Origin: Bacilli bacterium
Lineage (GTDB): Bacteria; Bacillota_I; Bacilli_A; Izemoplasmatales; Hujiaoplasmataceae
DNA length: 52,616 nt
Reading direction: 5' to 3'
Assembly (NCBI GenBank): GCA_018399755.1
Contig: JAGYOE010000006.1
Span: forward strand, 1 to 52,616
Shown here: in pieces, positions 9,392-31,945 of the stretch
Position numbering within the stretch: the first letter of the stretch is position 1
Layout of the letters: each line of letters begins with the position of its first letter
The notes under the pieces: model-generated
The model's database searches: none
What the model was told of the DNA's origin: nothing
The model's input: the letters and a program-made list of their open reading frames with translations, nothing else
Translations under genes and position numbers: made by a program

Positions 9392-9402
9392 TCTCTCCTC
9401 AA

Positions 9403-9426
9403 GAAAAAAGGATGTTTCCATCCTTT
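9403..9426 (-). terminator. Terminator after deoD
   Basis: Minus-strand hairpin AAGGATG-GAAA-CATCCTT, with a GNRA tetraloop (stem 9408-9414 and 9419-9425), followed by a U run. It starts a few bases after the deoD stop. Confidence 0.85.
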
Positions 9427-9428
9427 AA

Positions 9429-10136
9429 TTATTCTGCCATTTCTAAGGCGATTTTCATCATATTTGTAAAAGCAGTTTGTCGCTCTTCTGGTGTTGTAGA
9501 TTTGTTTGTTACTAATGAATCAGATACAGTTAATAAACAAGCAGCTTTTTTGCCTGTTACATTTGCGTTATGAAATAAAGCATATGATTCCATTTCTACT
9601 CCAAGTAATTTTTTTGCTTTTGCTTGTTTTAAAGTATCTTCAGGACTTTCTCGATAAAATACATCACTTGAATGAATAGTTCCAACATTAAGTGGTATAT
9701 TTAAATCTTCAGCTATTTCAACTAGTTTTTTATTTAACGTTTTTGATGCTGGTAATGTATCCCGTTTTTCCTTATTTTGTACAAATGCATAAGTTGATTC
9801 AGAATAAGCATCACTTGCTAAAATTGTATCATATAAGTTTAAGTCCTTTGAATATGCACCGCATGATCCAATTCTAATAATATTCTCTACATCAAAAAAT
9901 TTAAATAACTCATAAGAATAAATACCAATTGAAGGTTGTCCCATACCTGAACCCATTACTGATATTTTTTTACCATTGTAATAACCTGTATATCCAAACA
10001 TATTTCTAACTTCATTAAATTTAGTAACATTTTTCAAAAAGGTATCAGCTATATATTTAGCTCTTAGTGGATCGCCTGGCATCAATACTGTTTTAGCAAT
10101 ATCGCCTATTTCTGCCTTAATATGAGCAGTTGACAT
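9429..10136 (-). CDS. deoD: Purine nucleoside phosphorylase (DeoD type)
   Basis: Phosphorolysis of purine (deoxy)ribonucleosides to free base and (deoxy)ribose-1-phosphate. It is the hexameric bacterial DeoD type with 235 residues. Visible family blocks are MPGDPLRAKYIA near the N-terminus, RIGSCGAYS in the middle, GVEMESYALF binding the sugar, and the catalytic-aspartate region TVSDSL. The start is ATG at 10136, because GGAGG lies 8 nt upstream and the protein then begins MSTAHIKA like other DeoD. A longer frame from 10166 is rejected. It is in an operon with deoC and an unknown membrane protein, and ends at a clear terminator. Confidence 0.96.
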   Translation of the reverse strand: MSTAHIKAEIGDIAKTVLMPGDPLRAKYIADTFLKNVTKFNEVRNMFGYTGYYNGKKISVMGSGMGQPSIGIYSYELFKFFDVENIIRIGSCGAYSKDLNLYDTILASDAYSESTYAFVQNKEKRDTLPASKTLNKKLVEIAEDLNIPLNVGTIHSSDVFYRESPEDTLKQAKAKKLLGVEMESYALFHNANVTGKKAACLLTVSDSLVTNKSTTPEERQTAFTNMMKIALEMAE

Positions 10137-10137
10137 A

Positions 10138-10713
10138 TTATAAACCTCCTCTTTTAGCTTTTTCAATTAATTCCAAAGCTTTTTTATTATATACAATTGA
10201 AAAACGATAATACTCAGCTGAAAAAGTTGAATCAAAGGTGACTGATTTATTATTTTTATCAATTTTTTGCATATCAATTATAAATTTAGTTCCATATTTT
10301 ACACTAATACTAACTTGTTTTTGTTTACTTGAACGCTTTTGTCTAAATGCTTCTAAATATAATATATCATCTTGTATTATTAGTGCTGAGCGTTTTAAAA
10401 AATATCCTTGATAACTCTTTTCTAATAAAGGAATATATAAATCAATATCATCATATTTTTCTAAAGAATAATTATAGTATTTTTCCATTTGTTTTGCAGA
10501 ATATTTGGTAATAGAATAATCTCTTAAATAACTATAAAGCATAGAGATACCAATAATAATAAAAACTAATTCAACTGTTAAAATTCCAAATATAGATAAA
10601 ACAATTATAATCATTAAAGCTGAAATTAATGTGTAAAAGAAAATTCTTATTAAATTAACTTGACCAACTAATTTTTTAGTTTGAGCAAATATTTCTTCTT
10701 GTAATTTAGTCAT
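10138..10713 (-). CDS. Membrane protein of unknown function between deoC and deoD
   Basis: 191 residues, family not recognised. Two adjacent hydrophobic helices at about residues 22-42 and 46-62 suggest a membrane hairpin. A basic/aromatic soluble domain follows, with IIQDDILYLEAF and several Lys/Arg. The layout resembles small proteins with a membrane anchor and a YcxB/PH-like cytoplasmic domain, but that is only a resemblance. It begins at the end of deoC and stops 1 nt before the deoD start, so it is tightly embedded in the deoxynucleoside operon. A link to nucleoside metabolism is inferred from position only. Confidence 0.75.
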   Translation of the reverse strand: MTKLQEEIFAQTKKLVGQVNLIRIFFYTLISALMIIIVLSIFGILTVELVFIIIGISMLYSYLRDYSITKYSAKQMEKYYNYSLEKYDDIDLYIPLLEKSYQGYFLKRSALIIQDDILYLEAFRQKRSSKQKQVSISVKYGTKFIIDMQKIDKNNKSVTFDSTFSAEYYRFSIVYNKKALELIEKAKRGGL

Positions 10714-11369
10714 TAGTAATCAGAACCCATCTCATCATTCATGATTTTAACCCCACTGCTAGCGCCTATTCTTGTAGCTCCCGCTTCAACCATTTTCTCT
10801 AAATCAGCTTTTGAGCGAACTCCTCCAGCAGCTTTAACTTCTTTTCCATTTACATTTTCTTTCATTATTTTAACTGCTTCAGGAGTAGCCCCGCTACTTC
10901 CAAATCCAGTTGAAGTTTTAATAAATTCAGCATTTGTTTTACCAACTATATGACTTATTTTTTTGACTTCTTCATTATCTAGGTAACATATTTCTACAAT
11001 AACTTTAACTAATTTCTCACCAGCAGCTTTGCAGACTTGGTTAATTTCATCTTCTATGTAATCATATTCTCTATCTTTAAATTTACCAATATTTATTACC
11101 ATATCAATTTCATCAGCGCCATTTTTAACTGCATTTAAAGTTTCAAAAACTTTTGTTTCAGTAGTATTAGCCCCTAAAGGAAAACCAATTACTGTACAAA
11201 CTAAAACATCGCTATCACGCAGTTTTTTTTCTGCATAACTTACATGTGTAGGATTAATGCAAACACTTTTAAAATCATATTCCTTAGCTTCATCAATTAA
11301 TTTATCAATTTCTTTTTTCGTTCCAAACGCCTTTAAATAGGTATGGTCGATTAATTTGTTATATTTCAT
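10713..11369 (-). CDS. deoC: Deoxyribose-phosphate aldolase
   Basis: Splits 2-deoxyribose-5-phosphate into glyceraldehyde-3-phosphate and acetaldehyde. This class I aldolase has 218 residues, with the Schiff-base lysine in [15 protein letters not shown] (near residue 150). [27 protein letters not shown] and the C-terminal AAGGVRS/RIGASSG phosphate site are all present. AAAGGAGG precedes the ATG. With deoD below and deoB at 31982-33160, the deoxynucleoside catabolic route is nearly complete in this window. Confidence 0.97.
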
Positions 11370-14763: not shown

Positions 14764-15084
14764 TTATAAGTCCTTCCTATACTCGTCAACAAATCTTTTT
14801 AAAGTTGGTCCTAATAAGTCACTTTTTTGAGCCATTAAATATATTTTATCTTGAATTTTTACAATTTCACCATCACAAGCATATAAAACCCCTGATAAAA
14901 ATATCAATACTTCATTTGCTTCAGAAATTAAAGCATCAGTAAAATTTAAAACAATTGGCTCTCGATGCATTATTAATTCTGCATACTTATAAATATTTTT
15001 ATTATCATTTACTTTAACAAAGGTAATATCATCAAATTCTACATCTGTAGGTTCAATCTTTTTTTTGCGACTAAATAGCCCCAT
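14764..15084 (-). CDS. sepF: Cell division protein SepF
   Basis: FtsZ-bundling and membrane-anchoring division protein. It has 106 residues, somewhat shorter than Bacillus SepF because the linker is reduced. The N-terminal MGLFSRKKK is the amphipathic membrane-binding start. The C-terminal beta domain includes IVLNFTDALISEANEVLIFLSG, matching the SepF region that binds the FtsZ tail. It is next to ylmE and yggT as usual, while ylmH and divIVA are absent from the cluster. ftsZ itself lies separately at 19826-20995. Confidence 0.92.
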   Translation of the reverse strand: MGLFSRKKKIEPTDVEFDDITFVKVNDNKNIYKYAELIMHREPIVLNFTDALISEANEVLIFLSGVLYACDGEIVKIQDKIYLMAQKSDLLGPTLKRFVDEYRKDL

Positions 15085-15085
15085 A

Positions 15086-15727
15086 CTATTCCTCCTCGAA
15101 TAAAAAACTACCGATTCTTAAATGAGTTGCGCCCATTTCAATAGCAACTTCAAAATCATTGCTCATGCCCATCGATAATTTTGTAACTTTATTATCGTTA
15201 TATTCACGATTAAATTCTTCTCTTAGTTTAAGCAAAACATTAAAGTTTTCTCTAATAATTTCTTTATCATCAGTATGTTTTGCCATACCCATTAATCCAA
15301 TTACTTTAATTTTATCATATTCTTTAATCTTATTGTAGAAATCTAATGCATTTTCTGGTTTCAAGCCATATTTATTAGGATCATTAGCAATATTTACCTC
15401 TAGAAAACAAGGTAAAGGTTTTTCTCTTCTTTTTTCAATTTCATCTGCTAAAGACATCCTATCTAATGAGTGTAATAAAGTGATTTTATTAATCATTTTT
15501 TTAACCTTTTTTGATTGTAAATGGCCTATAAAATGCCAATTAATAGCTTTATCTTGATGTTTCTCATATTTATCAAGAAATTTTTTAACTCTATTTTCAC
15601 CTAAATCTTTAATCCCAGCATTTACTAGTTCATTAATTTCTTTATCACCAACATATTTTGTAACTGCAATTAATGTTTGGTCTGTCATCAAATTTTCTAA
15701 ATAAGCTAAATTTTTTTGATTTAACAT
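15086..15727 (-). CDS. YggS/YlmE family PLP-binding protein
   Basis: Pyridoxal-phosphate homeostasis protein of the fold-type III family without known catalytic activity. At 213 residues it is of usual length. The PLP lysine is in LIAVTKYVGDKEI near residue 24. NWHFIGHLQSKKVK, EVNIANDPNKYGL and the C-terminal SMGMSNDFEVAIEMGATHLRIGS are all family blocks. It stops 1 nt before sepF, in the ylmE-sepF-ylmG order of Bacillota. Confidence 0.95.
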   Translation of the reverse strand: MLNQKNLAYLENLMTDQTLIAVTKYVGDKEINELVNAGIKDLGENRVKKFLDKYEKHQDKAINWHFIGHLQSKKVKKMINKITLLHSLDRMSLADEIEKRREKPLPCFLEVNIANDPNKYGLKPENALDFYNKIKEYDKIKVIGLMGMAKHTDDKEIIRENFNVLLKLREEFNREYNDNKVTKLSMGMSNDFEVAIEMGATHLRIGSFLFEEE

Positions 15728-15739
15728 TAAAACACTTCC

Positions 15740-15910
15740 TTAATTTATTTTTTTTCTGCTTAAAAATGATACTATACTTGAAAAGAATATTACATAGATA
15801 GCAAGTAATATCTCAACAAATTGATTTTCAATCACAAATGCAATTAATAAAACAACGATTATTAAATTAATAATTGTTAAAGCTATCGCAATTAATTTAT
15901 TTTTTAACAA
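15740..15910 (-). CDS. Small two-helix membrane protein, 56 residues
   Basis: Short frame starting at TTG (15910), inside the last codons of surE, with AAAGGTGA seven bases upstream. The product begins MLKNKLIAIALTIINLI. It has two hydrophobic helices (about residues 6-26 and 31-50) and a basic tail SRKKIN. The overlap with surE suggests translational coupling, and ylmE follows 12 nt later. No family is recognised. The size, topology and position recall small membrane ORFs in other Bacillota operons. Support is the ribosome site, the uninterrupted hydrophobic pattern and the snug fit between neighbours. Confidence 0.6.
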   Translation of the reverse strand: MLKNKLIAIALTIINLIIVVLLIAFVIENQFVEILLAIYVIFFSSIVSFLSRKKIN

Positions 15911-16628
15911 TATTATTCACCTTTTTTCTTAACTCATTTAAACCACTTTGGGTTTGGTTTGCGAATTTCAACGGTGTAATTGATATATATCCGTTATTAA
16001 CAGCGTATAAATCAGTTTCTTCTTTAAAATCCTCGTTTAAAAAATTGCGCTTAGTTACATAAAAGCCATTCTCTCGAACATAAAAATGTCTGGTCGGTCT
16101 AAATCCTAAATCGGTAATCATTATATCTTTAGATTTATTAAAATCACGAGAAACAAAATTAACATTTAAAAGATATTTTTTTGAAATTAAGTCATTATCA
16201 AAAATAAAATCCAGAACTTTTCTCAAATCTTTTTTTGCTTGTTTTAAATGATTGTAATCAGCCGATAAAGCAATTGCAGGTATCTTTGATTTTAAGGCCT
16301 CCATACAAGCTCCAACAGTTCCTGAATATACTGTATCAGCTCCAAGATTAAAACCGGAATTAATTCCTGAGATTACAACATCAGGTCTAATATTTATCCC
16401 GTGCAAAGCTAAGGACACACTATCAGCTGGAGTTCCTTCTACTGAATATATTTTCTCTCCATGCTCAAAAACTTTTACCTTATTCCAAAATATCCTTGAA
16501 ACTGAAGAACCTGACATATGTTTATTTGGCGCAACTAAATATACATCTCCATAATTTTTTAATACTTTATATAAGTATTGAATACCTTCTGCATTGTAAC
16601 CATCATCATTAGTAAGTAAAATCTTCAT
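15897..16628 (-). CDS. surE: 5'/3'-nucleotidase SurE
   Basis: Metal-dependent survival-protein E phosphatase that dephosphorylates nucleoside monophosphates. The N-terminal MKILLTNDDGYNAEGI holds the paired metal aspartates. SGSSVSR, VISGINSGFNLGADTVYSGTVGA and a C-terminal substrate region are present, so it is full length (243 residues). Its ATG overlaps the yhbY stop by one base. It may support nucleotide salvage alongside the deo genes, which is inference. Confidence 0.95.
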   Translation of the reverse strand: MKILLTNDDGYNAEGIQYLYKVLKNYGDVYLVAPNKHMSGSSVSRIFWNKVKVFEHGEKIYSVEGTPADSVSLALHGINIRPDVVISGINSGFNLGADTVYSGTVGACMEALKSKIPAIALSADYNHLKQAKKDLRKVLDFIFDNDLISKKYLLNVNFVSRDFNKSKDIMITDLGFRPTRHFYVRENGFYVTKRNFLNEDFKEETDLYAVNNGYISITPLKFANQTQSGLNELRKKVNNIVKK

Positions 16629-16918
16629 TATAGTCTTATCCGATCTTTTAATTTTGGATTCGCTTTATAAAGTAGTAAAACTCGTCCAATTCTATATACA
16701 ACATAAATACCAGCTTCAGTTAGATTATCAATTATTTTTTCATAAGAATCGGGACAGTTTTTCAAAACTGATACTCGACCAACTTCATGTTTTTCTAGAT
16801 TCTCTAGAATATTATTGATTACGCTATTTGTAATTCCAGCTTGTCCAATCTGAAACATGATATCTTTTTGATTAGCTAATCTTCTTAATTTTGCTTTTTG
16901 TTTTCCTTTTAAATTCAT
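16628..16918 (-). CDS. yhbY: YhbY/YqeI family RNA-binding protein (CRM domain)
   Basis: A 96-residue protein made of a single CRM domain. It starts with LKGKQKAKLRRLAN, carries the GQAGIT loop (about residues 24-29), and ends with VVYRIGRVLLLYKAN. Family members bind 50S ribosomal precursors. It lies between the magnesium transporter genes and surE. Confidence 0.93.
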   Translation of the reverse strand: MNLKGKQKAKLRRLANQKDIMFQIGQAGITNSVINNILENLEKHEVGRVSVLKNCPDSYEKIIDNLTEAGIYVVYRIGRVLLLYKANPKLKDRIRL

Positions 16919-16929
16919 TTTTTCACTCC

Positions 16930-18336
16930 TTAAAATAGCGGCAACAATATTGCCAAACTAATTGTGTAATAGATTGATAGTGTTATTATATCAGAAATTG
17001 TTGTAATAAACGGTCCAGATGCAACCGCAGGATCAATTTTTAATTTATTCATTATTATTGGGATTAATCCACCTAAAGTTGTCGAAACAACTAATGCTAT
17101 AAATATTGAACCAGTTGTTACAAACGCATAGATATAATCAACATTCTCCAAAAATCCTTTAGTAGATAAATTTGTTAATAAAATCATCCCAAATACAATA
17201 ACTCCGATTAATAAACCTTGCAATAAACCAGTTCTAATTTCTCTAACTATCATTTTAACCAAAACTGATTGTTTTATATTATCATTTTTTGATAGATATC
17301 GAATTGTAACCGCCAAACTTTGTGTACCAGTATTACCTGCCATATCTAAGATTAAAGGTAAGAAAACAGCTAATTTAGCCGCTAGTAATGGCGCAGAGCT
17401 TGATAAACTATCATCAAAAAAAGATAAGATAAATGATGTAATCATCGATAATAACAATAAAACACCAAGCCAAGGAATTCTACTCTTAACCGACTTAAAT
17501 ACTGTCGTAGTTGCTAGTTTATTATCAAAATCTGATAAACCAGCAAATCTTGTATAATCTTCTTCTTCAGCTAAAGCAATAATATCCATTAAATCATCAT
17601 GGGTAATTACACCAATTATTTGTTTTTCATGATTAATTATTGGCAAAGAAGACTCTTTAGTTTCTTGCATTATTTTAGCAACAGACTCTACATTATCCTC
17701 TGGATATACTTTAGGAAATCTAGTTTCTAAAATATCATTAATTAATTCATCAGCTCTAGCTACTATTAAATCTTTTAACTTAAGATAACCCACTAATTTA
17801 GCATTATCTAAAATATAGATAATTGAAATATAATCGGTTTTATGAGCTTTATCAATAATTTGCTTCATAGCTTCTTTAACTGAAACATTAATATCTAAAG
17901 TTAAGAAACTATCATTAATAAACGAGCCAATTTCATCTTCAGAATACTTCATAATTGAAAGTATTTGTTTTCTTCTAGTTTTATTGACTAAGTTTAGAAT
18001 CTCAATACCTTTTTTCTTTAAACCTTTGATTAAATCAACGCTTAAATCAAGGTCCATATTTGTAAATATTTTACTAACTAAATCCCTTGAAAAATAATCA
18101 ATAACACAATTTACTTCTTCAACTGTAAAATATTCAAAAATCTCTGCCAAGAAGTCATTTGGTAATGACTCAAATAATCTTTTTATTATTTCTTCATCTA
18201 AATCCAAAATCGCTCTAGATATATCATATGCATGATATTTATCCAAAAACAGATGTAAATCCTTTTCTTCGAGATGATTATTTATTAGATTTATAATTTC
18301 ATTTTTATAATCTTTAATTAAGGCTTCATTTTCCAT
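16930..18336 (-). CDS. mgtE: MgtE family magnesium transporter, copy 1
   Basis: Mg2+ channel/transporter of about 468 residues. It has an N-terminal helical superfamily domain (to about 130), two CBS domains (about 135-255, including LVGYLKLKDLIV and IIGVITHDDLMDIIA), and a C-terminal pore domain with about five membrane helices. The pore segment keeps the Mg-binding aspartate in KIDPAVASGPFITT. The cytosolic domains normally close the channel at high Mg2+. The start is either GTG at 18342 or ATG at 18336; AAGGTGAGG serves both, and I chose the ATG. The gene lies directly downstream of a paralogue. Confidence 0.93.
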   Translation of the reverse strand: MENEALIKDYKNEIINLINNHLEEKDLHLFLDKYHAYDISRAILDLDEEIIKRLFESLPNDFLAEIFEYFTVEEVNCVIDYFSRDLVSKIFTNMDLDLSVDLIKGLKKKGIEILNLVNKTRRKQILSIMKYSEDEIGSFINDSFLTLDINVSVKEAMKQIIDKAHKTDYISIIYILDNAKLVGYLKLKDLIVARADELINDILETRFPKVYPEDNVESVAKIMQETKESSLPIINHEKQIIGVITHDDLMDIIALAEEEDYTRFAGLSDFDNKLATTTVFKSVKSRIPWLGVLLLLSMITSFILSFFDDSLSSSAPLLAAKLAVFLPLILDMAGNTGTQSLAVTIRYLSKNDNIKQSVLVKMIVREIRTGLLQGLLIGVIVFGMILLTNLSTKGFLENVDYIYAFVTTGSIFIALVVSTTLGGLIPIIMNKLKIDPAVASGPFITTISDIITLSIYYTISLAILLPLF

Positions 18337-18350
18337 ATCCACACCTCACC

Positions 18351-19745
18351 TTAAGTTAAAGTTGTAATAAAAGCCGTTGCCAATCCAAAATAGATTAGCA
18401 ATGACAATATATCATTAATCGTTGTAATAAATGGTCCTGATGCTGTAGCGGGATCAATTTTTAAAGCATTAATAATCAATGGAACAAGTGATCCAGCAAG
18501 TGTCGCGACAATTAAAGCTATACTAATTGATAGCGAAATTACAAAAGCTAAATTAAGCCCTTCTAAAAAAACCTCTCCACGAATAAAATTAAACAGAATA
18601 ACTAATACAAACAACCCAACCCCAATAATCAAACCATTAATTAAACCGGTTAAAAATTCTTTAAATAGATGATTTAAAATATTTTTCTTCGTTTTTAATT
18701 GATTTGTCGCAAACAACCTAATAATTACCCCTAAGCCTTGAGTACTTGAGTTACCAGCCATATTTAATATCAGCGGCATAAAAACAGCTAAAGTTGTTAA
18801 AGCTTGCAATTCTTTCTCATAGTTTGTAATAATCGAAGATGTAATTAAATTAACAAAAAGCAAAACAACTAACCAAGGCAATCTTTTTTTTAGCGAAGAA
18901 AAAACCGTTTCATCTTCTTCGATATTAACATCAGTTAAACCTGCTAAATTTGCATAATCAGACTGAGATTCTTCATTTAATACTTCTACTATATCATCAA
19001 ATGAAACTATCCCAATTAATTCATTGTTATTATTGATTACCGGCAATAATTGAAAATCATAATTCTTCATAAGCTCAATTGCTTCTTCTAAATCAGTCGT
19101 TGGTAATAAATAAACTAAATTAGTTACCATAATACTTTCTACTGCCATATGCTTTTCATTGCCTTTATTTATTAATTCTTTTAAAGAGATTGTACCTACT
19201 AAATGATTATCATCATCAACAACATAAATATTATGAATATATTCAACATCAGGAGCAGCTTCAACTACCTTTTTGATAGCTTCTGATATAGTCAAATTAA
19301 CACTAATCTTAACTAAGTTAGTATTTAAAATTGAACCAACTAAATCATCATCAAAATTTAAATATGTTTTTATCGTTTTTCTTTTTTTAGGTTCTATTAA
19401 TGATAAATAATTTAACTGTTTATCTTTATCTTCAATCAATTCAATAATATCAATTAAATCATCGGTTTCCATACTTTCAAAAACATTAATTATAATTGTT
19501 ACATTCATTTCTTCAAGTAAATAAAAAGCATCCTCTGGTTCCAATTCTTCAAACACTTCAGTTAAATCAAGAATAGAAAGATATTTATATAATTTAGTTC
19601 TTAATAAAGGATCTAAATCAAGAAGGATTTTTGCAATTTCATAAGAATGAAATTTTGCTAATTTTTGGTTAATAACATCAGCTTTATTTTCATTTATTAA
19701 AATAGATTTAATTTCATTTAATAAAGCAGTATTTATATCTTCCAT
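18351..19745 (-). CDS. mgtE: MgtE family magnesium transporter, copy 2
   Basis: Paralogue of the following gene, 464 residues, with the same N-domain, CBS pair and membrane-domain plan. The CBS domains include LVGTISLKELIN and LIGIVSFDDIVEVLN. The pore motif KIDPATASGPFITTIND retains its aspartate. The two copies have diverged clearly in the N-domain, so the duplication is not recent. It is the first gene of the long operon that runs through surE, ylmE and sepF. No magnesium (M-box) riboswitch is visible in the 80-nt upstream gap. Confidence 0.93.
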   Translation of the reverse strand: MEDINTALLNEIKSILINENKADVINQKLAKFHSYEIAKILLDLDPLLRTKLYKYLSILDLTEVFEELEPEDAFYLLEEMNVTIIINVFESMETDDLIDIIELIEDKDKQLNYLSLIEPKKRKTIKTYLNFDDDLVGSILNTNLVKISVNLTISEAIKKVVEAAPDVEYIHNIYVVDDDNHLVGTISLKELINKGNEKHMAVESIMVTNLVYLLPTTDLEEAIELMKNYDFQLLPVINNNNELIGIVSFDDIVEVLNEESQSDYANLAGLTDVNIEEDETVFSSLKKRLPWLVVLLFVNLITSSIITNYEKELQALTTLAVFMPLILNMAGNSSTQGLGVIIRLFATNQLKTKKNILNHLFKEFLTGLINGLIIGVGLFVLVILFNFIRGEVFLEGLNLAFVISLSISIALIVATLAGSLVPLIINALKIDPATASGPFITTINDILSLLIYFGLATAFITTLT

Positions 19746-19764
19746 CTTAGGCTCCTTCTAATAA

Positions 19765-19793
19765 ATTTTATCATTATTTATATTAAAATACAA
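19765..19793 (-). promoter_or_regulatory. Promoter of the mgtE-mgtE-yhbY-surE-ylmE-sepF-yggT operon
   Basis: -35 TTGTAT (19788-19793), 17-nt spacer, -10 TAAAAT (19765-19770) on the minus strand, just after the ftsZ terminator. AGAAGGAG is the first ribosome site. Confidence 0.6.
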
Positions 19794-19799
19794 ACGAAT

Positions 19800-19828
19800 A
19801 ATAAAAAGACTGGTTTACCCAGTCTTTA
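19800..19828 (-). terminator. Terminator after ftsZ
   Basis: Minus-strand stem AAAGACTGG/CCAGTCTTT (19805-19813 and 19819-19827) with a U-rich tail. The 5' arm overlaps the ftsZ stop codon. Confidence 0.85.
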
Positions 19829-20995
19829 GTCTTTAAAAGAATTTTTTAACCAAGAAGGAACGTTAATTTCATCCTCTTTATCTTCTTCTTTTTCTTTTGC
19901 TTTATTTAGTATTTGTTTTTTCTGTTTTTTTGTTTTTTTATCCTTATGTTTTTTCTTCTTTTTCTTTGGAATTTCAATTTTTTCTTCTGGTTCTTCTTCA
20001 AGTGTCTTTTTATCGATTTTATCTTCTTTATTGAAAATAGGATCATCACTAAAACCAGTAGCAATTACAGTTACAACTAACTCATCATCTAAATCAGAAT
20101 TAATTGCTGAACCATAAATAATATTTATCTCAGTAGTTGAACTCTTATGAATTTCATCAATTACTTCATCCATTTCATAAAGAGATGCTTGAAAATTTGA
20201 TGTAATATTCACTATAGCATCTGTAGCGCCATTAATTGATGTTTCAAGTAATGGTGATCTAATTGCTTCTCTTGCAGCTTCTACTGCGCGATTAGGACCT
20301 TCTGCAACACCTATTCCCATAAGTGCTGTTCCCTTATCTTTCATTACCGTTTTAACATCAGCAAAGTCAACATTAACAACTCCAGGAATAGCGATAATTT
20401 CTGTAATACCTTGAACACCTTGTCTTAACACCTTATCCGCTTCTCTAAATGCATCTAAATAAGAAGTATTTCTATCAACTACATAGAACAACTTATCATT
20501 AGGTATAACAATCAAAGTATCTACATAAGGTTTTAAAGCTTCTAAACCTTCAAGGGCAACTGTTGATCTGCGTTTTCCTTCAAAGCCAAAAGGTTTCGTA
20601 ACTATACCAATAGTTAAACAACCCATTTCTCTTGCGATTCTAGCAACTATTGGCGAAGCACCTGTACCTGTTCCACCACCCATACCTGCAGTTATAAAAA
20701 CCATATCAGTTTCAGCTAACATTTCTCTAATTTCATCTTCTGATTCTTCTGCGGCTTGTCTTCCAACATCTGGATTAGCTCCAGCGCCTAAACCTCTTGT
20801 AAGATTTTTACCTAATTGTAAGCGAATATCAGCCTTCGATAATTTTAAAACTTGTGCATCAGTGTTCATTGCGACAAACTCTACGCCTTGAACTTCATTT
20901 TCAATCATTCTGTTAACAGCTGAACCGCCACCACCACCAACACCGATTACTTTAATATTTGGTTTTTGATTAAACTTTTCATCCATATTAAACAT
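19826..20995 (-). CDS. ftsZ: Cell division GTPase FtsZ with a basic C-terminal linker
   Basis: Tubulin-like GTPase that forms the division ring. The 389 residues include the GTP loop GGGTGTGAS (106-114), NTDAQ near 44-48, and the T7 catalytic loop with [11 protein letters not shown] (208-218). The linker from about 321 is strongly charged, with a nearly pure Lys/His/Gln block at 343-361. The tail [13 protein letters not shown] differs from the usual D-IPTFLR peptide but should be the site that meets SepF. GGAGG precedes the ATG. No ftsA or dcw genes are adjacent: tgt is upstream and mgtE downstream. Confidence 0.97.
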
Positions 20996-21067
20996 GGCTT
21001 ACCTCCGAAATTCTAACTTTATCTTATCACAAAAGATTAATATTATAAATACGTTATTTATAAAATG

Positions 21068-22755
<1,688 letters not shown>

Positions 22756-22779
22756 AATGTCCTCCTTTTTATCACTACC

Positions 22780-22808
22780 ATTTTACTAAATTTTAATGAT
22801 TTAAGCAA
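22780..22808 (-). promoter_or_regulatory. Promoter of pduL-tgt
   Basis: -35 TTGCTT (22803-22808), 17-nt spacer, -10 TAAAAT (22780-22785) on the minus strand, divergent from the queT promoter. Confidence 0.65.
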
Positions 22809-22815
22809 ACAATAG

Positions 22816-22843
22816 TTGTTATTTTAGCAAGATTTGCTATAAT
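22816..22843 (+). promoter_or_regulatory. Promoter of the preQ1 riboswitch-queT transcript
   Basis: -35 TTGTTA (22816-22821), 16-nt spacer, -10 TATAAT (22838-22843). Transcription would start a few bases before the riboswitch stem. Confidence 0.65.
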
Positions 22844-22855
22844 TATATATCGTAA

Positions 22856-22894
22856 TACGCAGTTCGAAAAATCCTGCGTAAAAAAACTAGGAGG
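22856..22894 (+). ncRNA. preQ1-I riboswitch
   Basis: A compact aptamer with stem ACGCAG/CTGCGT (22857-22862 and 22874-22879), a TTCGAAAAATC loop, and the A-rich tail AAAAAACTAGGAGG. This is the class-I preQ1 pattern, in which the tail pairs back with the loop. The tail contains the Shine-Dalgarno GGAGG of the next gene, so ligand binding should hide the ribosome site (translational control). It lies directly before a queuosine-precursor transporter, which supports the call. Confidence 0.87.
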
Positions 22895-22900
22895 AATATT

Positions 22901-23581
22901 ATGCCAAATGAATTAATATGGATAGTGTTTGCTATTACAAACTTTGCTTTTTTTCTATTAAGTTATAAACTTTTAGGGAGACTAGGTATATTTCTATGGA
23001 TTGTTTTAGCCACAATTTTAGCTAATATACAAGTTCTTGTGGTCGTTGACTTATTTACTATTGAAGCTAATTTAGGTAATATTTTATATGGAACGATATT
23101 TTTAGGAACTGATGTTCTAAATGAAATATACGGTAAAAAAGAAGCTAAAAAAGCTGTATTTATTGGTTTTGCGGCAATGTTTATCAGCGTTATTATAATG
23201 TTGCTAGCAATTCAGTTCACTCCAAATCCTGATGATTGGGCGATGCCACATCTAATTGAAATTTTTGGTTTTCTACCAATTGTATTTCTAGCAAGTATGA
23301 CAGCTTTTATTGTTTCTCAATTAGTTGATATTTATATTTTTTCAAAAATAAAAGAAAAACTACCAGAAACAAAGTTTCTATGGCTAAGAAATAATGGTTC
23401 AACACTTATTTCACAATTAGTAGATACTTTAATTTTTGTGCCAATAGCATTTGCTACTGTTTTTACAGCACCGATTATATTTAAGTTAATTTTATCAACC
23501 TATATAATAAAATTAATTGTTGCTATATTGGATACTCCAGTAATTTATATTTCCAAAAAAATTAAACCTTTAGAAAACTAA
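22901..23581 (+). CDS. YhhQ family queuosine-precursor transporter
   Basis: Integral membrane protein of 226 residues with about six hydrophobic helices, of the YhhQ/VUT-1 family that imports preQ0/preQ1. Family blocks are FLGTDVLNEIYGKKEAKKAVFIG near residues 67-89 and QLVDTLIFVPIAF near residue 166. The pair of acidic/Asn residues in DVLNE and the KK motif are typical. The preQ1 riboswitch over its ribosome site gives the regulation. It is transcribed alone on the plus strand and ends at a strong terminator. Confidence 0.92.
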   Translation: MPNELIWIVFAITNFAFFLLSYKLLGRLGIFLWIVLATILANIQVLVVVDLFTIEANLGNILYGTIFLGTDVLNEIYGKKEAKKAVFIGFAAMFISVIIMLLAIQFTPNPDDWAMPHLIEIFGFLPIVFLASMTAFIVSQLVDIYIFSKIKEKLPETKFLWLRNNGSTLISQLVDTLIFVPIAFATVFTAPIIFKLILSTYIIKLIVAILDTPVIYISKKIKPLEN

Positions 23582-23605
23582 AACCACCCGCAGGTGGTTT
23601 TTTTT
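23581..23605 (+). terminator. Terminator after the queuosine transporter
   Basis: Stem AAACCACC/GGTGGTTT (23581-23588 and 23593-23600), loop CGCA, then a further T run. It also lies at the end of the convergent queA gene and may act in both directions. Confidence 0.88.
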
Positions 23606-24629
23606 ATTTAATAAACATTGCATCTCCAAACGAGAAAAAACGGTAACGATTTTTTATTGCTTCTTCATAAGCATTGAAAATTATCGCTTTAGAAGCAAAT
23701 GCCGATACGAGCATTAAAAGTGTAGATTTTGGCAAATGAAAATTTGTTATTAAACCATCGATGGCTTCATATTCAAAACCTGGATAAATAAATATATCGG
23801 TAAAACCTGAATCAGCTTTAAAAACATTATATTTTTTGTAAACTGTTTCTAAGGTCCTTACAGTTGTAGTTCCAACCGCAATAATCTTTTTACCATTTGC
23901 TTTAGCTTTATTTAAATTATTTGCCGTTGATTTTGATAATTGATAAAATTCACTATGCATTTTATGATTTTTTACATCTTTAACATTAACTGGTCTAAAT
24001 GTTCCTAATCCTACATGTAATGTAAGGTATTCTATTTTAATTCCTTTAGTTTTAATTTTATCTAAAAGCTCTTCAGTAAAATGCAACCCTGCTGTAGGTG
24101 CGGCTGCAGACCCAACAACTTTCGAATAAACTGTTTGATATCGCTCTTTGTCTTGGAGTTGTTTATGTATATAAGGTGGTAAAGGCATTTCTCCTAATAA
24201 ATCTAATATATCTTCTAAATTACCTTGATAGATTAATTTAAAATGTCTAATCCCTTCAGCTAACACTTCAACACATTCAAGCTTAAGTTCCCCTTTTCCA
24301 AAACTAATAATTGTGCCTTTTTTTACTCGTCTTGCTGGTTTAACTAACGTTTCCCATAAATGGTTCCCGTATTGATTTAGCAACAAGATTTCTATATGAG
24401 CATTGGTTTTCTCTTTGATACCATGAAGTCGCGCTGGTAAAACTCTAGTATCATTTAAAACTAATATATCATCTTTTGCTAAATAGTTGATGATGTTTTT
24501 AAAATAATCATGATTTAATCCCTGATTATCCCTATTAACTATTAAAAGTTTAGATTCACTACGCTTATTTAAAGGCGTTTGCGCAATTAATTCTTCTGGT
24601 AAATCATAAATAAAATCTTTTGTTTTCAT
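23604..24629 (-). CDS. queA: S-adenosylmethionine:tRNA ribosyltransferase-isomerase
   Basis: Transfers and rearranges the ribosyl group of SAM onto preQ1-34 in tRNA, making epoxyqueuosine. Length is 341 residues, as usual. It starts [33 protein letters not shown] is near residue 55, and GSAAAPTAGLHFTEELL and TLHVGLGTFRPV in the middle. The C-terminal NFHLPKSTLLMLVSAFA is also present. It overlaps the ruvB stop by one base (ruvB-queA, as in Bacillus, where tgt follows; here tgt is in a separate transcript). Confidence 0.97.
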   Translation of the reverse strand: MKTKDFIYDLPEELIAQTPLNKRSESKLLIVNRDNQGLNHDYFKNIINYLAKDDILVLNDTRVLPARLHGIKEKTNAHIEILLLNQYGNHLWETLVKPARRVKKGTIISFGKGELKLECVEVLAEGIRHFKLIYQGNLEDILDLLGEMPLPPYIHKQLQDKERYQTVYSKVVGSAAAPTAGLHFTEELLDKIKTKGIKIEYLTLHVGLGTFRPVNVKDVKNHKMHSEFYQLSKSTANNLNKAKANGKKIIAVGTTTVRTLETVYKKYNVFKADSGFTDIFIYPGFEYEAIDGLITNFHLPKSTLLMLVSAFASKAIIFNAYEEAIKNRYRFFSFGDAMFIK

Positions 24630-25633
24630 TAAAACATTGCTCCTTGAAAAGATTTTTTTAAATGCTTATAAGCCTTTTCAGTAACAATTCTTCCCCTAGG
24701 TGTTCGACTAATAAACCCTTGTTGAATTAGATATGGTTCATAAACATCTTCTAAGGTAGTAGGATCTTCTGATATAGAAGTAGCAATTGTATCAATTCCA
24801 ACTGGACCACCCTGATATTTTTCAATTATCCCTAGCAAATACTCACGATCTTTATTATCTAAGCCCTTTTCATCTATTTTTAATTTATTTAATGCAGTAG
24901 TAGTTATATCAAAAGTAATAAAACCATTACCTAAAATATCAGCAAAATCTCTAACTCTTCTAAAAAGTCTATTTACTATTCTTGGAGTACCTCTACTTCT
25001 TTTAGCTAATTCTAATATTGCTTTTGCTTCTGCTTCACATTCATAAATGCCTGCTGTACGTTTACAAATAGTTTCTAAATCCTTAGTATTATAAAATTCA
25101 AGTTTGTGAACTATTCCAAATCTATCTCTTAAAGGTCCTGTTAAATCGCCAAATCTAGTAGTTGCACCAATAAGTGTAAAAGGAGACAAATCTACTCTAA
25201 TAGATTTAGCGCCTGAATCTTTTCCAACCACAATATCAATAACATAATCTTCCATAGAAGAATATAAAATCTCTTCTACAATTTTTGGCAATCTATGAAT
25301 TTCATCTATAAATAATACATCACCGGGTTCTAATGAAGTTAAAATCGCAGCTAAATCACCGGTCCTTTCAACAGTTGGACCACTAACAGATTTAATACTA
25401 ACTTCTAATTCATTAGCTATAACTTGCGCTAATGTTGTTTTGCCTAATCCTGGAGGCCCATAAAGCAATACATGATCTAATGATTCATTGCGTTTTTTAG
25501 CTGCCTGAACAGCAATTTGAATCATCTCTTTAACATCTTTTTGACCTATATAATCACTAAAAAATTTAGGACGCAAGGTAACGTCAATTTCTTCATCTAC
25601 TAATAAATCACTAGTAATTATTCTATTATCCAT
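24629..25633 (-). CDS. ruvB: Holliday junction branch-migration ATPase RuvB
   Basis: Hexameric AAA+ motor that drives Holliday junction migration with RuvA. The 334 residues include the Walker [12 protein letters not shown] (about residues 60-70), Walker [12 protein letters not shown], sensor GATTRFG and arginine-finger region GPLRDRFG. The C-terminal winged-helix DNA-binding domain has [10 protein letters not shown] and TPRGR. ruvA, normally just upstream, is absent here and must be elsewhere. AGAGGTGA precedes the ATG, with a good -10 (TATAAT) some 10 nt further up but no clear -35. Confidence 0.97.
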
Positions 25634-25698
25634 AATTCACCTCTTTTATATTATATCAATTTATAATAAAAATAACACCCCTATTTTAAGGTATATTA

Positions 25699-25727
25699 TT
25701 GATTATTAACTAGTATTATATTATAAT
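25699..25727 (+). promoter_or_regulatory. Promoter of the coiled-coil gene pair
   Basis: -35 TTGATT (25699-25704), 17-nt spacer, -10 TATAAT (25722-25727). GAGGAGAG follows before the ATG at 25758. It is divergent from ruvB. Confidence 0.7.
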
Positions 25728-26039
25728 TAAATTATAATATAGTCTGAGGAGAGTAAAATGGCAAATAAAGGCGATATCATAAAGAAATATTATAATGAAT
25801 ATCCTCAATTTCATGTCAATAATAACATCCGTTTAACACAATTAAAACGGAATTTTTCTTCTGACAAAAAATTGTATCGCGAACAAATAAACAGACTAAC
25901 TCATAAAATTACTAATATACAAAATAAACATAATATCGAATTAAAAAAAATACATCAAAAAAGTATTATTAAAAAGGCAAAAATACTTGAAAAATATAAA
26001 TCGATTAAAAATCAATTCGATGGTGAATTTTCAAAAGTC

Positions 26040-27717
26040 AAATAAACAATGAACATAAAATATTTGAAGATATTCTTGAACAATTTTGAAATTAAAACAA
26101 GATGCATTAGATATCTATTTACCAATTAACAAAACAAAATAACGAAAAATAGATAGAAGATATGAAAGTTCACCATATATTTATCGAAAAAGAAGAAAAA
26201 AATTAAAAAGTATTTAACTCACAATATGAAGATTTATCAGCTAAACTAAACAACAAAATGATTTGGACTATCGAAAAATCAAAAAAATGTATCATTCAAT
26301 TAAAAAATGATTTATCTAAAATTGATAAAGACGATTTAATATCTCTAAATCAAAAATTACCTGCAATCATTAACAGATCTTAGAGGAACTAGAAATGATA
26401 TTAATGTACTATTCAAAGAAACATCAAATAGTTTAGGTAAATACAGAAGAAAATATTTTAGTATTCGTGATATTAAACAAAAACCTTATTCTGACATTAA
26501 TCAAAAAGTTAATTCAAAAATTAATTAAACAGATTAGACTAGCCAATCAAAATAAAATTAAATATCAACGCATAATAAAAAGCGATTTTTTAGATTCTCA
26601 AAACAAACTATATCCACATATATTACAAGCCTATCCAAGACCATCGAAAAGATGACTTAGAAAAGTATATACTTCAAAGTTGAAACATTAGAAGAAAAGG
26701 CTAATTATTTAGTCAATAAAATCGAAAAAATTACAAATTATAATATCGCTACTTTATAAGCAGAATTAAGAAATAAAAATCGAAGCTTTTACTAGAAGCA
26801 GAAGAGATTAAATTTTTCTTATTCTGTACCTATGAAATATATAGAAAATGCTATAAACATTTACTCTAATTACAATTTCTATTTCAATCAAGGATTTGAT
26901 GATTTAGACAAATTATTATCGCAATTAATAGATTTTTCTCAAGAGTTCCAATGAAATTAGGGATGACGGAAATTCTTAATATTAAAAAAGATTTAGCAGA
27001 TTATCAAACTAATTTTCTATGTCTTATTAAAAATACATCTGAAAAATTATCTGATCTATATCATATTGATGATATTGTATCAAATCACTACTTTAGAATC
27101 AAAAAACAGACTTGAAATAGCTGAAATCAAAAAGAAATTATCAATGTTGATATTAAAGGTGATTATATAAAATACCTTGAATCATTAAACAGTGATTACG
27201 TTCTAGCAAACAAACAAGCTAAAACAAGACTAAAAAGAATTAATGTTCATAAATTATATTTTGATAAAACCTTGAAATTTATCAAACTGCTATTTTATGA
27301 CGAAGAAATTGAATCTGCAATACTTCACCAAATTTCAATCATGATATCAATGAAATGAAACTAACTCACATAATAGAGATTACTACGAATATTATCTAAG
27401 TCAACTCGATTTATTCTATGGACATCAAACAAACTTGCTAGAAGTTTTTATGTTAATGATGAAAGAACGCGTAAGTCAATCAATTAAAGCTCAAAATTAC
27501 CATTTAGCAAAAGGGTTTTTTGATTATGAAAAAAACACAAATCATAAAATTGATATTAAAGACCGTGCTCTATTAGAATATATTAACCTTAGTCAAAAAA
27601 ATATTGAACTTAACAATCAAGAAACCAAGAAATTCATTAAATATCTTTCTGACCAAGCAAAATCATATTCAACATTAACTTATTTAAGAAAAAACAAGAA
27701 TTAATTTATATAAACAA
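26040..27717 (+). other. Localised frameshift/nonsense tract inside gene A
   Basis: Apparent disruption sites from translating all three plus frames. Base loss is seen near 26040, 26086, 26605, 26649, 26783, 26944, 27130, 27330 and 27359. Base gain is seen near 26132, 26370, 26525, 26675, 26812, 27087 and 27690. In-frame stops are at 26150 (TAG), 26204 (TAA) and 26757 (TAA), each one transition from a Gln codon. Positions within a run are approximate. The stretch has no other credible gene on either strand; the short frames at 26467 and 27435 are pieces of A. Confidence 0.7.
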
Positions 27718-29151
27718 TTGAATAATAACTATTCTAAAAACTGCTATAATAAGTCCAAAAAATTATTGATAGTTTTCAAGAGAAATGAAGTTAAACATTA
27801 TAAGAAATTAAAACAAAAAGAATTTATTAATTTAAGAAGGCCAAAAACAAATAATTTTAAATTCGATATAAGAAGTGTAGGAAAAAATATTTTAAAAATT
27901 ATAACCAATATATATTACAAATTAGTTGATTATTCGTTCAATTATCAATGCAATATAAGCATTCAAAATTTAAATGATTTATATGATAATTTTATTTTCA
28001 AATATACTGAAAAATCAATATTTTTATTCGATAAAATTATAAAGAAAAAGCCATATAAAATTATTAATCTTATTAAAGATTATTTAATTTACACTATCGA
28101 ATCAATTGAATATTTAATTAAAAAGTTTAGTTTAATTATCGAAAATATCTCTAACCAAAAACTTGATAAACAAATAAAAGAAATTGCTTACTTAAAAATT
28201 AATTCAGACTATCAAAAAGATATAATCAATGAACAATTTGATAAAATTGCCGAAAAAAGCATAATCATCAGAGATAATTCTAAAAAACAACAAGATAAAT
28301 TAGAAAAACACGCATACTTATTAAATAAATACCTTGAAAAAAAAGTAATAAAACTTAACAAAAAATTCCTAAACACCAAATCTTTTAATGAAAATAAGAT
28401 TTTATTTGTAAAAAAACGCCTTACTAATTCCATTGAAAACAACGATGAATTGTTAATAAAAATGTTAAAAGATTTTGATAAATCTATTTATGAAACACAA
28501 ATGAATCTCAAAAAAGATTATAAATTACAAATGAAGTTACTAAAAAATCTTCAAACAAAGATTGATATTGATTTCTATTCCGAAAATAATTTCATTGAAA
28601 ACCTTTCTAAAGAAAAGCTAAACAACATCAACCTATTACAAAATCAATTAAAATCGCAATTAGATATAGTGCCTAATGAAAGGCAAAATATGTTAGCTAA
28701 TATAAATAATGATAAAGTTGCTTTTTTTAAACAACAACAAAAACAATTGTTAGCTAAATTCAGAGAAATTGAAAAGGAAAAATTCTCTCAAATCCCTAGT
28801 TTAGAAGATAAAATAAAAGCTTTAGAAGCAAATATAAAAACTGATTATCAACGTTTAAATGATAAGCACATTAACCTTGAAGAAAATTTCCTAAATCAAC
28901 ACACACTAATAAATGAAAAATATCAAGAAGCTTACAATAATTATATCAACAATAAAATTACTAAAGCTTCAAATTTAGAAAACGAATTAGATTCACCATT
29001 AAAAAATATTAATGATGTTCAAGCATCATTAATTAGCAGAACAAATATAATTTATACTGAAACTAAAAACAAAACAAATTTAACAGTCAAAAAAATATAT
29101 CATGACAAACAAAAATCAGAAAACAAACAAAAACGAATTATCAATTCTTAA
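27718..29151 (+). CDS. Open 3' part of coiled-coil gene A (C-terminal fragment)
   Basis: Uninterrupted frame of 477 codons, all coiled-coil-like, with heptad-style stretches such as KEKLNNINLLQNQLKSQLD and QQQKQLLAKFREIEKEKF. The nominal start is a TTG with no ribosome site, and the first in-frame ATG lies far inside. It is therefore better read as the intact remainder of gene A than as an independent gene. The N-terminal part is rich in Lys and aromatic residues, with a moderately hydrophobic helix-like zone near residues 55-70 but no clear membrane segment. It ends 13 nt before the start of gene B, and the stop codon abuts B's AAGGAGG. Confidence 0.55.
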   Translation: MNNNYSKNCYNKSKKLLIVFKRNEVKHYKKLKQKEFINLRRPKTNNFKFDIRSVGKNILKIITNIYYKLVDYSFNYQCNISIQNLNDLYDNFIFKYTEKSIFLFDKIIKKKPYKIINLIKDYLIYTIESIEYLIKKFSLIIENISNQKLDKQIKEIAYLKINSDYQKDIINEQFDKIAEKSIIIRDNSKKQQDKLEKHAYLLNKYLEKKVIKLNKKFLNTKSFNENKILFVKKRLTNSIENNDELLIKMLKDFDKSIYETQMNLKKDYKLQMKLLKNLQTKIDIDFYSENNFIENLSKEKLNNINLLQNQLKSQLDIVPNERQNMLANINNDKVAFFKQQQKQLLAKFREIEKEKFSQIPSLEDKIKALEANIKTDYQRLNDKHINLEENFLNQHTLINEKYQEAYNNYINNKITKASNLENELDSPLKNINDVQASLISRTNIIYTETKNKTNLTVKKIYHDKQKSENKQKRIINS

Positions 29152-29164
29152 GGAGGCTTTGTTA

Positions 29165-31945
29165 GTGAAAGATAAAGCTCAAGACAAAAACAAATATGAT
29201 ACTGATTATTATAAAAAGAAATTAGATAAATCATATTCAGATGAATTATCTTTTTTCGATAAGTTTTATAAAAAAATAAATAATATTGCAAAAAATAATC
29301 AACAAACAACCCTCAATAACCTTAAAGAATCCAAACAAACACTTGAAAACATCAAAAAAAAATCCAAGAAAACCATGGAATCAATAATTAATCATGATAA
29401 ACAAATGGTTATTGAAAAACAAAGAAAAATTCGCAATTCATTAACTGCTATTCATAATAATAACTATAAAATTTATAACTACGAAAAAGAAAATTTAAAC
29501 AAAAACGTATTTTCTTCCGAAAAATTCTTTGATAATATTATTAAATTTAATCAAGAATTTTTTGAATCTTATAAGTATTTTCTTAGTTCCAGTATTTCTG
29601 AAATTGATTCTTTTTATAGTTATTTAGAAGAAAAAAATAAAAGTTTTAATTATGTTATTAATAAACATTTCTCAGAAATTCAAGAAGAATTCGCTAATCT
29701 AAATGATAAAATTTCAAAAATAGACAAAGAAATAGAATCATTGATGCTCGCAAAAAAACAAAAAGATACAATCTTAGATGAGTTTTTTAATGTAGAAATA
29801 AAAAATTTAGTTGAAAACCAAATTAATTTTGCAATTAACCAAAATCCTTATTCTTCAGAAATAAATTTAATAACTGAAACTCAAGTTTATCAATATAATC
29901 AGTATAAAAAACATTTATTAAACCAAGAAAACAGATTAAAAGCTAAACTTGCGAATGAAATAAAAATCATATTTCAAGAACATTTTAACAATATCTATAA
30001 TAAAACCAATAATAATAATAAAGCACTTAACTATGCAAATAAAAAAACCAGTAATTTAGTTAAAAGAAATCTAGATATTTTATTTAATTTTAAAAAAAAC
30101 AATGTTAATAAACTATATCAATTAAAAAGATCCTTAAATCTATATTTAAATTTTTATAAAGTTGATCCTTTTTTGGGGCAATTATTTGTAGATAATCTTT
30201 CAAAATTAATCAGCGATGAAGTTGGTTTTACTAGATTATATAAAATGAATAAATCACAGATATATAATCTCTACTACACATATAAATTAGCTAAATTGAA
30301 TCAAGAAATTAAACTAATGGAATTTAATCTAATTCATTTTATTAAGAAAAAATTCATTGAAGAGGAAATTGATATTACAAATATTATTTTTGATATTAAT
30401 TCATTCATTTTAGATATTAAAGGAAACATAGTTACAACTAGAATAGTATTAAAAAGAGAACGTTTTTACCTTGAATACTTAGATAAATTATTTGAGATAC
30501 ACCTGCAAAATTTAATCGATAATGATAAACTAGATAGAAACTTCTTTTATAATTTTTTTGACTTAACAAATCAGTATATTAGAGATAAAAATAATCTTGA
30601 TATAAAACTAGTTTCAGCTAGTTCTGACATAAAATTAGCTTTGAAGGAAAGCTCAATTGAATCACTTCATTTTCGTAATTTATACGAAAATGAAAAAAGA
30701 CATTTATTAATTCAACAAAATCGTCTAAAATCAGAAACTAATATCAACAACGAATTTCTTCTTACAACATATAAAAATCAAATGCGTTTTGCGAAAGAAC
30801 AAATAAAACTTGCTGATGAAGAACTAAAACTTAGATTAAACTCAATTATTGAAACAATTAATAGTGAAAGAGAATATTTTTATAAATTAATTGCTGAAGA
30901 GATTAAAGAAAAAGAAAAAGCTGCAGACAGTAAATTTGCAACTTATCAGAAAAATATATACAACCTTATTAATGGGTTAGAAAACAATGATTCTAAAATA
31001 AGCAAGAATAAAATTCATAAACAACTTGAAAAATTAAGAAAAGAATACCGTAGAGAAATTGATCTTATTATAGAAAAATATATAGATGATAAGAAAATTT
31101 ATATTTATAATAAAAGATTACAAGAACTTGATATATATTTAGAAGACGCCTTCTCAAACGCTAGTAAATTATATGATGAAACATATGAAGAAATGGATAA
31201 AATATATCAACACGCAGAAGACAAATATCATAAGTTTAATAAAATAATTGACAAAAAAAGTTATCCTCTTGATGATGTTTTATTTATTAGCCTTAAAGAA
31301 ATAAAAGATCGTTTAAATAATCGTTTAAAACAAACTGAAATTGCATTATATGAAAAAATACAGGACAAACTTGATACTTTTAAATCTATCTACTTTAAAA
31401 TGCAAAATCAATTAAATTCAAACAATATAATGGATTTACTAAATCAATATCAAAAAGAAAAAACATATTTAAAAGATAATTATAACAATATATTAGAAGA
31501 AATAAATAAAAATCACTTAATTCAAATAGAAGAATATAATCAAGAAATTTTTGAACATCAAATAGAGTATAAAGAGATTAAACAAGAAATAATTAACAAG
31601 AAAAAGACCTTGATTAATAAAAAAACTTCTGAAAGAAATAAAAAAGATCATAATTTTAAAGATTTCCTTTTAACAATTAAAAATAATCACAAAAAAGACC
31701 TTGAAAATATAATTATTAGCTATTATCACCAAACTGAAGATAATAAAGTTTTCAATAAACAACTCAAAAATAATTATCAAAAACTACTTTATAACTATCA
31801 AAATTATATTAAATACAGTAAAAAAAGTAAAAATATTAGAAAATTAATAAAGAAAACATTAAAAGAAACTAGAAAAGAAAAAAAAGTTGTACTAAAAAAA
31901 TTAAATAAAGATAAAGCAAATATTAAACTTCTAAAAAAAAAGTAG
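29165..31945 (+). CDS. Giant coiled-coil protein B of unknown function
   Basis: 926 residues, full length, no recognised family. Composition is extreme (Lys, Asn, Glu, Ile dominate) and almost the whole chain is predicted helical/coiled coil. Only a central zone (about residues 310-440) has less regular sequence. The C-terminus is a polybasic tail of roughly 50 residues (KKTLKETRKEKK...). No signal peptide or membrane helix is seen. I chose GTG at 29165, because AAGGAGG lies 8 nt upstream. An in-frame ATG at 29102 is inside gene A and has no ribosome site. It is similar in style to gene A and shares its promoter. A structural or cytoskeletal-like role is conceivable but unproven. Confidence 0.8.
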   Translation: MKDKAQDKNKYDTDYYKKKLDKSYSDELSFFDKFYKKINNIAKNNQQTTLNNLKESKQTLENIKKKSKKTMESIINHDKQMVIEKQRKIRNSLTAIHNNNYKIYNYEKENLNKNVFSSEKFFDNIIKFNQEFFESYKYFLSSSISEIDSFYSYLEEKNKSFNYVINKHFSEIQEEFANLNDKISKIDKEIESLMLAKKQKDTILDEFFNVEIKNLVENQINFAINQNPYSSEINLITETQVYQYNQYKKHLLNQENRLKAKLANEIKIIFQEHFNNIYNKTNNNNKALNYANKKTSNLVKRNLDILFNFKKNNVNKLYQLKRSLNLYLNFYKVDPFLGQLFVDNLSKLISDEVGFTRLYKMNKSQIYNLYYTYKLAKLNQEIKLMEFNLIHFIKKKFIEEEIDITNIIFDINSFILDIKGNIVTTRIVLKRERFYLEYLDKLFEIHLQNLIDNDKLDRNFFYNFFDLTNQYIRDKNNLDIKLVSASSDIKLALKESSIESLHFRNLYENEKRHLLIQQNRLKSETNINNEFLLTTYKNQMRFAKEQIKLADEELKLRLNSIIETINSEREYFYKLIAEEIKEKEKAADSKFATYQKNIYNLINGLENNDSKISKNKIHKQLEKLRKEYRREIDLIIEKYIDDKKIYIYNKRLQELDIYLEDAFSNASKLYDETYEEMDKIYQHAEDKYHKFNKIIDKKSYPLDDVLFISLKEIKDRLNNRLKQTEIALYEKIQDKLDTFKSIYFKMQNQLNSNNIMDLLNQYQKEKTYLKDNYNNILEEINKNHLIQIEEYNQEIFEHQIEYKEIKQEIINKKKTLINKKTSERNKKDHNFKDFLLTIKNNHKKDLENIIISYYHQTEDNKVFNKQLKNNYQKLLYNYQNYIKYSKKSKNIRKLIKKTLKETRKEKKVVLKKLNKDKANIKLLKKK

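Follow-up and report, generated by a model that had tools for sequence, protein, structure and literature searches.

Metagenome-assembled genomes are documented to contain chimeras and local assembly errors, through which public databases acquire incorrect proteins (Chen et al., 2020, PMC7111523). In long-read assemblies, indel errors fragment genes, and the resulting frameshifts are well known (Lorv and McConkey, 2025, PMC12007338). The locus described here lies in a window of 52,616 nucleotides, which is the entire contig JAGYOE010000006.1 (G000:C56) of an Izemoplasma-type draft genome. The draft consists of 1.23 Mb in 76 contigs, is 80% complete and has a contamination score of 0.06%. Because it is fragmented and incomplete, it is most likely a metagenome bin. 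One large gene of the window, termed A, is broken over about 1.7 kb, and this broken stretch is almost certainly not a biological feature.

Gene A runs on the plus strand from an ATG at 25758 to a stop at 29151. Its frame is open for 95 codons, is then broken, and is open again for the last ∼477 codons. The 3′ neighbor, gene B (29102–31945, plus strand), is intact, with 947 codons open from the ATG at 29102. Pfam and NCBIfam searches with A and B gave no match at E ≤ 0.01. A and B are adjacent very large proteins, and their pairing is conserved in this family; A was found in 28 of the 61 genomes searched (the window's own counted), typically as one frame of ∼1150 codons, and B in 35 of 61. A scan of genome contigs with the A alignment listed three relatives, Mycoplasmatota zrk2, Tenericutes GH50 and Ca. 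Izimaplasma Tobar14m-G21, with the window's own genome absent from the list; the same kind of scan with the gene B protein found no relatives. B of the genus member G003 (L039, 4022–6628) and A of the genus member G004 (L036) display a weak similarity of ∼20% over ∼845 residues (uncorrected tblastn), which may reflect coiled-coil bias or an old duplication.

Full-length A orthologues are 1145–1160 amino acids long, and A is intact in all four other genus members compared (G001–G004). In the nearest relative, G003, the gene lies in two pieces, on contigs that share a 556-base overlap with 97% identity, and it is open throughout. A comparison with sister genomes had been proposed as a check by the original prediction, and it does reveal an intact, single-frame A.

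Frame damage was counted by alignment of the window DNA from 25758 to 29148 to protein profiles of the A orthologues, with frame jumps allowed at a penalty. At rising penalty the gene shows 28, 24, 20, 18 and 17 jumps, the values 24 and 20 belonging to the middle settings. All of these fall between ∼26,025 and ∼27,800. The same frame-aware method finds no jumps in the A orthologues of G001, G002 and G004 and none in gene B. The clustering of the 24 jumps has P ∼7e-7 if jumps are uniform over A, and ∼1e-12 if uniform over A and B together. Within the patch the indel density is roughly 1.4 per 100 bases, with 12 insertions and 12 deletions at the 24 jumps. No homopolymer enrichment was found among the patch indels when it was looked for as a clue to sequencing chemistry; in this and in the equal split of insertions and deletions, the indels are unlike the typical nanopore pattern.

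The original prediction that A repeatedly loses frame between ∼26,040 and ∼27,690, with clean coding sequence on both sides, is thereby confirmed. Several of its details change. The number of indels is nearer 24 than the ∼16 first proposed (17–28 by penalty, robustly at least 17), and the left edge, placed at 26040, is refined to 26,025–26,045. Three nonsense codons had been claimed. The two in-path stops that remain at the stricter setting resolve, one setting further, into insertions and deletions that compensate each other, and the TAA closing the 95-codon open reading frame sits at the left junction; nonsense substitutions are therefore unneeded. The 477-codon segment is mostly clean as described, except that the junction zone takes in its first ∼25 codons (27718–∼27800), with further jumps possible there at the lenient setting. 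Gene B, described as unbroken over 926 codons, is indeed without jumps, but its open frame is longer, as given above.

Gains and losses of frame in the patch sum to the frame of the next open segment, as might be the case if programmed frameshifting were at work or if the segment were non-coding. Frame closure is nevertheless expected of any bridged gene that has a native 3′ part. Relatives encode the segment in a single frame with no jumps; the orthologues do not share the breaks, which had been named as the sign of a non-coding segment. A programmed or non-coding reading is therefore excluded for all practical purposes, with a vanishingly small probability left to it.

Parentage changes within gene A. 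The 5′ part (25758–26040) is a single open frame from the ATG, is clean, and is of native, G003-like type, with 72% amino acid and 79% nucleotide identity to G003 over 25758–26020, versus 33% and 54% to G004 and 31–35% amino acid identity to G004, G002 and G001 in all. At the left junction (26025–26045), frame-aware alignments place together the switch in parentage, the first frame jump and a shortening of ∼6 codons relative to the orthologues. The frame-broken segment (26040–27690), which holds the 24 jumps counted at the middle penalty, is G004-like. Its first half is 79% identical to G004 at the amino acid and 77% at the nucleotide level, versus 64% and 69% for G003; in its second half the amino acid identities are 64% to G004 and 43% to G003. 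A nucleotide search with the patch gave 75% identity to G004 over 1492 bases versus 69% to G003 over 1150 bases. In the right junction zone (27691–27830), 6–10 codons are missing relative to the orthologues, three to four extra jumps are possible, and parentage returns to G003-like. The clean 3′ part (27830–29151) has no jumps, and shows 50–62% amino acid identity to G003 versus 28–36% to the others (28–34% to G004 over 27830–29148).

Sites that match a single genus member give the same picture. Between 26021 and 27000 there are 41 such sites for G004 versus four for G001 and four for G002 (in that count, this part was not covered by the G003 row); from 27001 to 27690 there are 36 for G004 versus six for G003; and from 28501 to 29148 there are 55 for G003 versus four for G004. 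Gene B is 64% identical to G003 in amino acids versus 43–45% for the other genus members. The flanks of the window are also closest to G003, at 80% nucleotide identity over 15000–26020 and 82% over ∼36.7–45 kb, other relatives being at 70–78%. The limits of the G004-like segment coincide with the limits of frame damage. Judged by these sequence similarities, the patch is of another species-level lineage than both of its flanks. The donor was sought with the patch DNA in 34 family genomes and was not found among them, the best match being G004 at 75% nucleotide identity.

The patch in gene A is not alone. A further ∼236 kb of the draft genome was sampled as 15 stretches, of which one is all N. 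In several places of this sample long open frames collapse, and three of these places, at unrelated loci, were examined, which adds at least three more patches. The second patch, in C7 (L082, ∼15,480–18,060), covers three consecutive genes with ∼50 jumps in 2.6 kb. The adjoining ABC ATPase gene is clean, with 86% identity to G003; G003 is not the closest match of the patch itself. The third, in C5 (L080, ∼18,250–20,000), affects one gene, which has 78% identity to G001 and shows 26 jumps within 1.5 kb, while clean DNA adjoining it has 83% nucleotide identity to G003. These two pieces, the broken gene and the clean DNA, are found in opposite order, ∼3 kb apart, in all four relatives. The fourth, in C2 (L077, ∼9,210–11,180), holds in broken form a locus of ∼1.7 kb that includes an SRAP/YedK-like gene. 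The broken copy is ∼75% identical in nucleotides to G001 and G002, an adjoining clean copy is 76% identical to G003, and the copies are 67% identical to each other; relatives have only one copy of the locus. From their arrangement, the C5 and C2 structures look like misjoins. A fragmented PASTA-like protein in C1 (L076, 11700–12524) is a possible fifth patch.

A patch of low-quality sequence was among the options first considered. The kind of explanation was right but incomplete, as the patch is also chimeric, with G003-like flanks and a G004-like interior. Could the patch be the organism's own gene A in low-quality sequence, with no chimera? The indels and the retention of conserved residues would agree with this. 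The grouping of the patch with G004 and of both flanks with G003, the loss of codons at both edges and the structural misjoining of the C2 and C5 patches do not; such an origin is contradicted by the switch in parentage and is very improbable.

Between the frame jumps, the coding sequence is well preserved. Six orthologues agree at 104 columns of the patch, and the patch differs from them at only five, several of these beside a jump; the clean C-terminal part of A differs at eight of 35 family-invariant columns. Compared with G004, the patch has a proportion of non-synonymous differences (pN) of 0.19, which falls inside the 0.16–0.33 spanned by intact relative pairs over the same region. Since dS is near saturation among genus relatives, dN/dS adds little beyond the low pN. 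Indels without accompanying substitutions would be the product expected of sequence error.

These data bear on ordinary recent pseudogene decay and on localised hypermutation of A. Many indels in one spot might suggest either process, and both had been put forward, the former as recent decay with the 3′ parts still selected. But neither process alters parentage, and the same pattern is present at three other unrelated loci. Conserved sites have not changed alongside the indels, lesions do not extend beyond the foreign segment (all are within 26025–27800), and the orthologues are intact in all four other genus members compared. Decay with selected 3′ parts is contradicted by the few changes at invariant columns, by the differing parentage of the other patches and by the changes in length at the junctions; hypermutation is contradicted by the conserved residues, the similar patches elsewhere and the same changes in length. 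The codons of the patch are highly conserved after frame-aware alignment, and decay is therefore to be excluded; taken together, the two processes have an exceedingly low probability.

The switch in parentage is real in the sequence, and might point to true horizontal replacement of the middle of A from a G004-like donor followed by decay, which would yield a mosaic pseudogene. Yet ∼24 indels are accompanied by hardly any change at invariant sites, and the pN value is that of intact pairs. Homologous recombination would preserve length, yet codons are lost at both edges, and neither length nor frame is kept at the junctions; such a loss would be expected of an imprecise join. In addition, the other patches differ in affinity, and the order of joining is wrong in one of them. 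On this reading a true exchange of the A core between species would have been followed by indel-only mutation that struck imported DNA alone, at several loci in a single genome, a very improbable course of events.

The broken stretch of A is very probably an assembly artefact, an error-rich G004-like segment that bridges a gap in a G003-like contig. This reading is based on the intact orthologues, the local indels, the conserved residues between them, the parentage switch with loss of length at both edges, and the recurrence in C7, C5 and C2. Native A sequence from ∼26,035 to ∼27,800 would have been missing from the G003-like draft, and the gap would have been filled at low accuracy with the homologous gene sequence of another, G004-like species. 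The bridging material was perhaps long-read-like, e.g. a single long read or a small number of them, with no error correction or with little coverage, and the donor presumably co-occurred in the same sample. The join would have been imprecise, with a few codons lost at each edge. The recurrent patches are most simply explained by one cause, coverage gaps bridged by error-rich DNA of related organisms.

The value of the finding is a data-quality warning and not biology. At least four error-rich patches of mixed parentage within contigs were missed by the contamination score of 0.06%, and scans of the draft genome for pseudogenes, hypermutation or recombination would give false positives. Such patches can be quickly detected by frame jumps together with a parentage switch relative to sister genomes.

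As in the cases of Chen et al. (2020), chimeric DNA within an otherwise sound contig leads to incorrect protein-coding genes. The patch in gene A differs from these cases in that it is also dense in indels, derives from a related lineage and recurs at several loci. As with the errors treated by Lorv and McConkey (2025), intact genes are pseudogenised by frameshifts and false stops. Those errors are assembly-wide, whereas here foreign patches are sharply bounded, lack homopolymer enrichment and stand against a clean background.
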